From: Desulfobacteraceae bacterium
Lineage (GTDB): Bacteria > Desulfobacterota > Desulfobacteria > Desulfobacterales > ETH-SRB1
DNA length: 32,044 bases
NCBI GenBank assembly: GCA_013792055.1
Contig: VMSQ01000072.1
Coordinates: 1-32,044, forward strand
Reading direction: 5' to 3'
Below, piece after piece: positions 12,295-19,920 of this stretch. How positions within the stretch are numbered: position 1 is the first letter of the stretch; each line of letters begins with the position of its first letter. The notes below the pieces were generated by a model. The model made no database searches. It saw nothing but the letters and a program-made list of their open reading frames with translations, and was not told the origin of the DNA. A program made the translations under genes and the position numbers.

Positions 12295-12384
12295 AAGACC
12301 GGATCTGCAATCTGACCAGTTTTGTCACATTCATATCTATCTTGCCTGAAACCTTTGAAAAACAGTACTAAAGTCAATTTTTTT

Positions 12385-13758
12385 ATGAAACAGCAGATTG
12401 TAAATCAGACACATATAATTTTAGACAGCATTGCCGACGGCGTTTTTACCGTTGATCTTGAATGGAAGATCACCTCCTTTAACAGGGCGGCCGAGGAAAT
12501 AACCGGAATAAAAAAAAATGAGGCGATCGGAAGACACTGCTGGGAAGTTTTTAAGGCCAGTATCTGCGAACAGGGCTGCATGCTGCGAAAAAGCATGGAA
12601 ACAGGCTATCCTTTTGTAAATCAGTCAATATTTATCGTTAATTCCGAAGGTGAACGAATTCCAGTTAGCATATCAACCGCTCTTTTAAAAGATAATAAAG
12701 GAAAAATAATAGGGGGAGTTGAAACATTTCGAGATTTAAGCGTGGTGGAAGAACTACGCAAGGAGCTGGCCGACAAGCATACATTTCATGATATCATAAG
12801 CAAAAACAAGGAAATGAAACGTCTATTCGGCATGCTGGAACTTGTTGCTGAAAGTAACACTACTGTCCTTATTGAAGGAGAAAGCGGCACTGGAAAGGAA
12901 CTTTTTGCAAAGGCAATTCATTCCATCAGCAACAGGAGGAAAGAGCCTTTGATCACTATCAACTGCGGCTCTATACCAGATACACTTCTTGAATCTGAAT
13001 TATTCGGATACAAAGCCGGTGCCTTTACAGATGCAAAAAAGGATAAATCCGGACGTTTGGCTCTGGCTGAAGGCGGTACTCTTTTTCTGGATGAAATCGG
13101 AGATATTTCACAATTACTCCAGGCAAAGCTCCTGCGTGTCCTGCAGGATAAAGTCTATGAGCCTCTCGGAAGCACATCATCACTCAAAGCAAACGTGCGG
13201 ATTGTTGCAGCCACAAACAAGAGCTTAGAAAAACTTGTAAAAAATGGCACATTTAGAGATGACCTTTATTACCGTGTTAATGTAGTCAAACTTTTACTTC
13301 CTCCTTTGAGGGAACGTAAGGAAGATATACCCTTGTTAGCCGAGCATTTTATCCGAAAATGTAACCGGCTGAATGACAGAAAAATCCAGGGGATATCTCC
13401 AGAAGCTTTATCTATTCTTATGTCACATGATTTCCCTGGTAATATTCGCGAATTGGAAAATATAATTGAATACGCAAGTCTGGTGTGTAAAAAAACAGTA
13501 TTAGGAATCGAACATCTCCCCGAATATTTGCGTCAGCAATCAGATAATACGAGAATAAGCCCGCCCAAGGCCCTACCACAACAAGAATTTTCATTCCATG
13601 ACATTGAAAGAAATTTTATCTTTGAGGCTCTGATGGAAAACAGCTGGAACAAAAGCGTAACCGCAGCGAAATTGGGAATTCACTCTACAACTTTATGGCG
13701 TAAAATAAAACGTCTGAAACTTGAAATTCCAAAAACAGATGGCAGGTCGAAAAAATAG
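12385..13758 (+). CDS. Sigma54-dependent transcriptional regulator (PAS + AAA+ + Fis-type HTH), ORP-locus-type
   Basis: PAS N-terminus; VLIEGESGTGKELFAKAIH Walker A, AGAFTDA loop, GGTLFLDEIGD Walker B, C-terminal HTH NSWNKSVTAAKLGIHSTTLWRKIKRL. ATG at 12385 (MKQQIVN) preferred over TTG at 12322. Confidence 0.9.
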   Translation: MKQQIVNQTHIILDSIADGVFTVDLEWKITSFNRAAEEITGIKKNEAIGRHCWEVFKASICEQGCMLRKSMETGYPFVNQSIFIVNSEGERIPVSISTALLKDNKGKIIGGVETFRDLSVVEELRKELADKHTFHDIISKNKEMKRLFGMLELVAESNTTVLIEGESGTGKELFAKAIHSISNRRKEPLITINCGSIPDTLLESELFGYKAGAFTDAKKDKSGRLALAEGGTLFLDEIGDISQLLQAKLLRVLQDKVYEPLGSTSSLKANVRIVAATNKSLEKLVKNGTFRDDLYYRVNVVKLLLPPLRERKEDIPLLAEHFIRKCNRLNDRKIQGISPEALSILMSHDFPGNIRELENIIEYASLVCKKTVLGIEHLPEYLRQQSDNTRISPPKALPQQEFSFHDIERNFIFEALMENSWNKSVTAAKLGIHSTTLWRKIKRLKLEIPKTDGRSKK

Positions 13759-13927
13759 CCCGTATTTCTCATAAATTTAGCTTTATTGCGTATTTGCATC
13801 TATATCTCCCTTTCATTGCAATTTTGATATCATTACATCTTTATTTCACGTCCTTATTTTAATGTTATCATTCCTGATTTTTCAGTCAATCCAATAAGTT
13901 ATATTCATTGTCTATTTATACTCCGTC

Positions 13928-13945
13928 TTGGCATGGAAAATGCTT
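13928..13945 (+). promoter_or_regulatory. Putative sigma54 (-24/-12) promoter TTGGCATGGAAAATGCTT
   Basis: GG (13930-13931)-N10-GC (13942-13943) spacing, close to TTGGCAYG-N4-TTGCW, between a sigma54 activator gene and the NifX-like operon. Confidence 0.7.
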
Positions 13946-13954
13946 TGTTTATAT

Positions 13955-14124
13955 ATGATCATCGTTTCGGCTGTTTTATAACCACCTCCAATATATTTTC
14001 CCTACCCCATAGGGCATATACAATTAGGTGACGATTTCCCCTTACCTCCATATCCTGCTCAGGAAAACAGGCTAAGACGGGAGAAAAAGATTAAAGAAAA
14101 AGATTGAGCCGAAACGATGATCAT
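13955..14124 (+). ncRNA. Putative structured 5' leader RNA closed by an 18-bp perfect stem
   Basis: ATGATCATCGTTTCGGCT (13955-13972) is the exact reverse complement of AGCCGAAACGATGATCAT (14107-14124); the left arm begins at the sigma54-predicted TSS. Confidence 0.45.
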
Positions 14125-14206
14125 TCAATCGTCTTCTAATTATCTTCGCCGGAAAATTTTTAGAAACTATCTTTCAAAAAATACATTTTAAAAAGGAAAG
14201 TAGCAC

Positions 14207-14683
14207 ATGAAAATAGCTGTCAGTTCCAATGGAACAGATTTAAATTCGCAAATAGACCCGCGCTTTGGCAGGTGTGCCTATTTTTTAATCGTCAATACAG
14301 ATGATATGAGTTTTGAGGCTTTTGAGAATAAAGGCGTTGCATTAACCGGTGGTGCAGGCATTCAAGCTGCTCAGTTTATAATTTCAAAAGGTGCTAAAGC
14401 TTTAATAACCGGCAACTGCGGCCCAAAAGCTGCCCAAGCACTCTCAACAGGAGGGGTTGAACTTTTTGATGGGCAGACAGGATCAGTAAAGAAAGCTATA
14501 GAAAAGTATAATAGTAATAATCTTACCTCTACAATAAATGCCGAGCAAAATGTATCTAACATTCCAGTAAATCCAAGCGGAATGGGAATGGGTGGCGGCA
14601 GAGGTTCCGGAGGCGGTGGAAGAGGAATGGGTGGCGGCGGTCGCTGCGGTGGTGGTGGTGGCGGCGGCAGAAGGGGCATGTGA
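14207..14683 (+). CDS. Dinitrogenase iron-molybdenum cofactor biosynthesis (NifX/NafY)-like protein with Gly-rich tail; ORP-like
   Basis: MKIAVSSNGTDLNSQIDPRFGRCAYFLIVNTD...ALITGNCGPKAAQAL; C-terminal GMGMGGGRGSGGGGRGMGGGGRCGGGGGGGRRGM. Confidence 0.9.
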   Translation: MKIAVSSNGTDLNSQIDPRFGRCAYFLIVNTDDMSFEAFENKGVALTGGAGIQAAQFIISKGAKALITGNCGPKAAQALSTGGVELFDGQTGSVKKAIEKYNSNNLTSTINAEQNVSNIPVNPSGMGMGGGRGSGGGGRGMGGGGRCGGGGGGGRRGM

Positions 14684-14716: not shown

Positions 14717-15091
14717 ATGAGAATTGCCATGCCGATATGGAATGATAAAGTCTCGCCTGTTTTTGATACTGCTTCAAAACTTCTTATTATTGATGAAAAA
14801 AACTTAAATAAAGTATCCCGTTTCGAAACAAATCTAAATGAGTCAGATTTATCTCGAAGATGTCTTCGCATCCAGGGTCTTAAAATAAATATCCTAATTT
14901 GCGGCGCCATATCTCGTCCTTTTTTAATGATGCTCGTGTCATCTGGAATCAAAATAATCTCAGGGATATCAGGACTCGCCGAGGATGTATTGAACGCTTA
15001 TTTGCATGGTTCTTTGTCAAATTCAAAGTATCTCATGCCGGGATGTAAAGATAATCATTGTAACTATTCAGCCACAGATTCACACAGATAA
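14717..15091 (+). CDS. Second NifX/NafY-like protein (ORP-like), C-terminus running into repeat sequence
   Basis: MRIAMPIWNDKVSPVFDTASKLLIID...LICGAISRPFLMMLVSSGIKIISGISG; final residues NYSATDSHR lie on a CACAGATTCACACAGAT repeat. Confidence 0.8.
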   Translation: MRIAMPIWNDKVSPVFDTASKLLIIDEKNLNKVSRFETNLNESDLSRRCLRIQGLKINILICGAISRPFLMMLVSSGIKIISGISGLAEDVLNAYLHGSLSNSKYLMPGCKDNHCNYSATDSHR

Positions 15092-15225
15092 ACGCAGATA
15101 GGTTTAAATACAAAGAAATCACAGATATTATTCTTAGAAGTTTTTATAAAGCTTATAATGAGCTTGGTGATGGGGTTCTGGAAAAAAATATCAGTGATGA
15201 TCAGCGTAGATCAGCGGCTGAATAG
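15073..15225 (+). pseudogene. Remnant of a GxxExxY-type protein (N-terminal about 30 aa, flanked by repeat-derived codons)
   Basis: Frame from 15073 reads HRFTQINADRFKYKEITDIILRSFYKAYNELGDGVLEKNISDDQRRSAAE*; the core EITDIILRSFYKAYNELGDGVLE resembles the GxxExxY N-terminus. Not in the ORF track. Confidence 0.65.
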
Positions 15226-15268
15226 TTACTAATCATTTAATTCAAATGAAAGAGGAAAAGGAAATAAT

Positions 15269-15613: not shown

Positions 15614-15655
15614 ACCTAATTTTGCATTAAATATATATTGTAAACTGTCTGGACT

Positions 15656-15701
15656 AATGGCCAAATAGTTGTTAAAATTTTTTAATAACTATTTGGCCAT
15701 T
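15656..15701. terminator. Near-perfect 46-bp hairpin (possible terminator or processing site between the CGGC gene and the ATPases)
   Basis: AATGGCCAAATAGTTGTTAAAA-TT-TTTTAATAACTATTTGGCCATT, one G/T mismatch in the stem; no long T-run after it. Confidence 0.55.
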
Positions 15702-15736
15702 TAATATTAACCATTCAGAAATGAGACCTTTGAAAA

Positions 15737-19646: not shown

Positions 19647-19821
19647 AAATTTCTGTAACTACTCAGGTTGTTAGGTTCACGGTTGGTTGCCTTGATCTTT
19701 TCATATTTCTTGATAGTTTATAAAGCCAAAACTAATGCACAATCAATATACAATATTTTTATAATTGATGCTATACAGAAATTTACAAACTCATTATGAA
19801 ATTAACCCAATAACTCACGAA

Positions 19822-19920
19822 AATCTGTGTAACCTGCCCGCTTGTGCCTCCCTGCCCGCAATGCTTCGCAACGCGAGGCGGGCGGGGCAGTGGCAGGCGG
19901 GTCTGCGTAATCTGTGGATT
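19822..19920. repeat. Nested repeat: GC-rich palindromic unit inside an AATCTGTG(TAA)TCTGCGTAATCTGTGG repeat
   Basis: AATCTGTGTAA | CCTGCCCGCTTGTGCC...AATGCTTCGCAACGC...GGCAGTGGCAGGCGGG | TCTGCGTAATCTGTGGATT. Confidence 0.6.

Follow-up and report, generated by a model that had tools for sequence, protein, structure and literature searches.

What occupies the leader of an orp-type operon in a Desulfobacteraceae bacterium, past its sigma54 promoter and ahead of its first gene, and does it act there as an RNA? In the window, the whole 32,044-nt stretch of DNA that was analysed, a 170-nt segment bounded by two inverted arms lies in this leader, and it had been put forward as a structured RNA that might respond to a metal or cofactor. 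The best reading of the evidence set out below is a relic of a non-autonomous DNA transposon (MITE), transcribed as a 5'-UTR hairpin that perhaps affects mRNA stability or processing. What appeared to be a riboswitch candidate thereby becomes, very probably, a transposon relic. The coordinates of the features discussed are collected in Table 1.

Table 1. Features of the orp-type leader and its neighbourhood, in window positions; assignments of the arms and interior to a MITE are probable
Feature	Position	Strand	Basis
sigma54-dependent activator gene	12322..13758	+	ORF; Pfam PF00158, PF13426, PF02954
Conserved upstream regulatory region	13759..13927	+	Between-species divergence; alignment
sigma54 promoter TGGCATGGAAAATGC (-24/-12)	13929..13943	+	Identical in 5 aligned species
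Left arm, probable MITE terminal inverted repeat (TIR), outer GGCC lost	13955..13972	+	Perfect inverted repeat; family TIR positions 5-22
Probable MITE interior, 134 nt, weakly structured, this genus only	13973..14106	+	DNA and covariance searches; fold z = -2.1
Right arm, probable second TIR of this MITE	14107..14124	+	Perfect inverted repeat; TIR match
Right flank CTTCGCCGG	14144..14152	+	Whole or nearly so in the 3 element-bearing species, missing in L037 and L038 (alignments)
First operon gene, NifX/NifB-type: Nitro_FeMo-Co domain, Gly-rich tail	14207..14683	+	Pfam PF02579

Genomic context and promoter

The gene upstream of the leader encodes a protein with PAS, sigma54-interaction AAA+, and Fis-type HTH domains (Pfam), which is probably the regulator of the orp locus; its start codon is uncertain. 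Downstream of the leader, Pfam identified two Nitro_FeMo-Co domain proteins, a CGGC-domain protein, and two MinD/Mrp-like ATPases with ferredoxin domains. Together with the regulator these are the genes that an orp locus would be expected to contain, in agreement with the original prediction that NifX-like genes of an ORP-type locus follow the leader. The first of them diverges strongly between species, and the tail of its product is Gly/Arg-rich (GMGGGRGSGGGGRGMGGGGRCGGGGGGGRRGM) and partly encoded by 39-nt repeats.

The sigma54 promoter box that had been predicted ahead of the repeat is fully identical across the alignment (5/5 species), and boxes similar to TGGCATGGAAAATGC were found at the equivalent place in most relatives of the regulator. 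When C13943 is taken as position -12, the predicted +1 falls at 13955, and the left arm begins twelve bases past this -12 C. The claim that the 5' arm starts exactly at the sigma54 +1 therefore holds for the window, by the predicted start, but it does not extend to the other two loci that carry the element, L052 and L036, where the same count puts the start of the arm at +4 and +3, respectively. In L052 the stem extends upstream of +1 (AAGACG/CGTCTT).

The inverted repeat and its fold

As first described, the inverted repeat is perfect, the arms being 100% complementary across 18 bp with 134 nt between them; we estimate the chance of such a repeat at that spacing as about 1e-4 per 32 kb. The computed fold of the 170 nt has an energy of -56.1 kcal/mol, where shuffled sequences average -30.9 (z = -6.24); this fits the closed terminal stem proposed for a transcript from the predicted +1, and the full elements of L052 and L036 gave similar results. 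The interior by itself scored only weakly (z = -2.1 in the window, -1.1 in L052, and -0.7 in L036), so that nearly all of the fold signal is that of the inverted repeat. A purine-rich segment, CAGGCTAAGACGGGAGAAAAAG, had been singled out as conserved-looking, and it is kept in the three species with one difference.

The 170 nt contain no listed ORF of at least 80 aa. A small-ORF reading of the purine-rich segment, which would give ENRLRREKKIKEKD and then a stop in all three species, was rejected because the start codon is absent in L052 and L036. A retron-like reading, with the arms as a1 and a2, was also rejected, as no reverse transcriptase was seen in the adjacent genes.

A dispersed family of terminal inverted repeats

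A covariance model was built from the three copies of the element, and 60 relatives as well as 395 genomes of the order were scanned with it. Apart from its three source loci, the model matched elements from other families of the order, with scores of about 28-42 bits, and several of the best alignments had the same arms (AUGAUCAUCGUUCCGGCC...GGCCGGAACGAUGAUCAU) around interiors that were unrelated and mostly shorter. Matches scored about equally on either strand, and one of them, at L084, was a simple-repeat palindrome and not a same-arm element. No copy of the 134-nt interior was found outside the genus by DNA or covariance searches.

The TIR pattern was then counted with both strands summed and at most one mismatch, using the reversed pattern as a control. 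Matches numbered 166 in G086, 197 in G344, 142 in G093, and 47 in each of G194 and G150, and the control gave 0-1; genomes from other families of the order thus have up to about 200 matches each. A profile of 28 copies, 27 from G086, G344, and G093 and one from the genus of the window (L141), gave GGCCWTGATCWTCGTTTCGGCCA, with a family TIR of GGCCWTGATCWTCGTTTCGGCC. Family copies span 87-287 bp, and their interiors vary widely, with frequent inner palindromes. The window arms (ATGATCATCGTTTCGGCT) differ from TIR positions 5-22 (WTGATCWTCGTTTCGGCC) by one base per arm, and the chance of an arm-length match to a dispersed inverted-repeat family is, by our estimate, far below 1e-4.

Target-site duplications of 8-9 bp accompany this family: in 17 of the 28 copies the flanks agreed at no fewer than 7 of 8 positions, where 0.7 were expected (flanks re-paired, 5000 shuffles; mean 0.7, maximum 5). 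An exact 8-bp duplication, gcaaaacc, was seen at L159, in a genome outside the order. Outside the order, the exact TIR 22-mer has a patchy distribution and was present in 2 of 398 genomes of the phylum. Within the genus of the window, the sole other family copy found with both ends is L141 (G007:C240), which is degenerate and has a 7/8 duplication. Candidates for an autonomous parent yielded none with a transposase: two long TIR pairs in G093 enclose ordinary genes and no recognisable transposase, and viral contigs with the TIR word carry single ends, not elements. A limited literature search found no description of the family, and the case illustrates that shared ends can reveal a transposon family whose members have unrelated interiors.

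At L099-L118 and L082-L088 the interiors are interchangeable, and several are other palindromic repeats (ATTTGTCTGAACC...GGTTCAGACAAAT or TGTAGAGACGCAATGCATTGCGTCTCTAC). From these sequences it looks as if the TIR-family ends mobilise whatever lies between them.

Presence and absence among relatives

In the genus of the window, the element occurs at one locus only, in three species (the window, L052, and L036). In L037 and L038 the same promoter, regulator, and gene are found, with the element cleanly absent from the site; the distance from promoter to start is 58 and 68 nt in these two, compared with 260-264 nt in the window and L052. The leader of G001 is also without the element and has the promoter, the first gene, and an unrelated MITE. 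The distribution of the right flank, CTTCGCCGG, points to a single insertion event. In the regulator tree, (window, L038, (L037, (L036, L052))), the inner group has support of 99/99; because the element-free L037 is nested among element-bearing species, the element must have been lost at least once (in L037) or exchanged between lineages. Farther out among the relatives, leaders are mostly shorter, and the element is in none of them.

A DNA search of 395 genomes of the order returned the three copies of the genus and two short, chance-like A-rich matches (G203 and G391). Neither phages and plasmids (DNA search) nor viral contigs (motif scan) gave a match to the element. It is single-copy in G000, G002, and G007, with no second copy in its own genome or the rest of the genus, and so lacks the multiple copies per genome that mark MITEs in general; the TIR family itself is multi-copy in other families of the order. 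The element is dispensable.

We conclude that the leader hairpin is very probably an old MITE that entered the DNA separating the sigma54 promoter from the first orp-type gene. It is small, has no transposase gene, and is found as filled (window, L052, L036) and empty (L037, L038) sites, and both ends match the family TIR at positions 5-22, the outer GGCC (positions 1-4) being gone. No target-site duplication was found at the window, L052, or L036 copies, and descent from the TIR family consequently rests on the TIRs and on the filled and empty sites. The missing GGCC ends and duplication are read as signs of an old, aged insertion; in L052 the outer bases of the element still pair (GACG/CGTC). 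The window copy is presumably old and immobile.

The same observations bear on the proposal of a metal- or cofactor-responsive leader, here a riboswitch for Mo, W, or Cu that would control the orp operon. Although such a switch might be suggested by the placement ahead of NifX/orp genes and by the conserved purine-rich CAGGCTAAGACGGGAGAAAAAG, close sisters have the same operon without the element, and the other orp leaders searched are without it too, so that it is confined to three species of one genus. An Rfam scan of the whole window, which the original prediction had named as a check, matched no family, Moco/Tuco RF01055 included. Neither a terminator nor a helix sequestering the ribosome site was seen adjacent, no covariation was detected (see below), and the arms reappear as transposon ends near unrelated genes. 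We regard a riboswitch as extremely unlikely.

An action of the arms at the DNA level, as paired operator or activator sites, had been offered as the alternative, and each arm does contain a palindrome, ATGATCAT. In D. vulgaris, the orp promoters are sigma54-dependent and are activated by a cognate regulator, DVU2106, which binds palindromes, and IHF occupies the stretch separating the DVU2106 sites from the promoters (PMC3897727). The present locus likewise combines a sigma54 promoter with a probable cognate activator. The D. vulgaris arrangement puts the activator sites upstream (PMC3897727), whereas the arms here lie downstream of the predicted +1. The same 18-mer also stands at the ends of elements in dozens of unrelated places. 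Element-free sisters retain the conserved upstream region, 13759-13927, which is present in 5/5 species with or without the leader element and diverges between species by 10.7-16.5%, compared with 25-28% for nearby spacers. It is this region that is expected to be the home of activator sites, perhaps also of IHF sites. Paired activator sites in the arms are accordingly very improbable, only a little less so than a riboswitch. A structured leader is not mentioned for the D. vulgaris orp promoters in the passages cited (PMC3897727), and the leader element is an optional feature in this genus; activator/IHF control of the kind described there (PMC3897727) needs no leader element.

Divergence of the element

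Of the 169 sites of the element compared between the window and L052, 10 differ (5.9%). For the same pair, divergence is 27.7% in the spacer at 15614-15736, 26.4% in that at 19647-19843, and 19.4% at third positions of the regulator gene (dS 0.37); the element is significantly slower than the spacers (Fisher p = 4e-9) and the third positions (p = 1e-5). This slow divergence counts against a mere relic, since a relic should drift faster. It raises the possibility that the element, a MITE by origin, has been exapted and is now a selected cis-acting leader RNA in the three species, acting in 5' stability, in RNase III processing, or as a released sRNA. However, the adjacent promoter region, at 10.7%, diverges at about the same pace as the element (p = 0.17), and the constraint may be regional. 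Between L052 and L036 the element differs by 6.4%, close to the dS of 0.095 and so near neutral.

The structure offers a similarly mixed picture. When the 51-pair structure was applied to the three sequences, 98% of cells paired, mostly through sequence likeness. Eight pairs vary, of which five are unbroken through U-G wobble wherever both letters exist and three have one broken cell. Unpaired columns vary more (13/72) than paired ones (10/102), a point in favour of exaptation. Against this, the covariation anticipated for a functional leader was not seen: 0/51 pairs changed on both sides, with no excess over shuffles, among three sequences only. The interior fold is near chance in L052 and L036, and the element is lost or absent in L037, L038, and G001.

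Taken together, these values give a hint of constraint on the element, not proof of RNA function, and the region may have been exchanged between lineages. We consider exaptation possible, with the balance tilted against it. Somewhat more doubtful is the fuller proposal that a solitary, immobilised MITE was domesticated as the selected 5' leader RNA of the orp operon, its transposon end serving as a protective mRNA stem or stable sRNA transcribed almost exactly from the left terminal repeat. If the slow evolution does reflect selection, the locus would provide, among uncultured relatives of sulfate reducers, a testable case of a mini-transposon turned mRNA leader.

Possible effects of the probable MITE relic and comparison with known systems

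For the preferred reading, a MITE relic within the 5'-UTR, the following course of events is envisaged. The MITE would have landed between the promoter and the first orp gene in an ancestor shared by the window's species and two relatives. With the predicted +1 ahead of the element, transcription by sigma54 polymerase should run through it, and the element would form about the first 170 nt of the mRNA. The terminal repeats would then be expected to pair in the cell as a long 5' stem. The end of the stem is 82 nt before the start codon, so the ribosome site should stay free, with little consequence for translation. Any effect would most likely be on the life of the mRNA, either by shielding of the 5' end or by provision of a double-stranded target for RNase III.

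The Correia elements of Neisseria have a TIR sequence different from that of the leader element. Both are MITEs, the present one very probably so, with TIRs that form stems within operon mRNA, although transcription is predicted here; Correia elements are high-copy in their host, whereas the leader copy is alone in its genome and has worn ends. According to a review, RNase III cuts Correia elements, for example those in mtrCDE transcripts, at their TIRs, and the elements alter expression (PMC10969869). By analogy with this precedent, RNase III may cut the leader stem.

A MITE in hupL of Candidatus Thiomargarita nelsonii has 19-bp inverted repeats and direct-repeat duplications, with no parent IS family in ISfinder (PMC4853749). 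It is likewise short with inverted-repeat ends, a likeness of description only. Its duplications are of 10 bp and it interrupts a gene, whereas the family of the leader element makes duplications of 8-9 bp.

Other repeat elements at orp loci

Several further repeats were noted in and around orp-type leaders. Between two orp genes of the window, at 15060-15229, lies a second MITE-like, imperfect inverted repeat with 46-nt arms (74%; CAGCCACAGATTCACACAGATAAACGCAGAT), of which a few roughly 70%-identical copies are found elsewhere in its own genome. An unrelated, high-copy MITE of ~170 bp sits in the same orp leader in L036 (2005-2185) and in L014 of G001 (near 942-1077), and every genome of the genus contains 15-57 matches to it. 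The orp leader of this genus thus collects mini-transposons. Another orp-type leader, L043 (9551-10042), measures 477 nt from the promoter to the listed ORF and holds a long, strongly folding insert, which is possibly also a repeat element.
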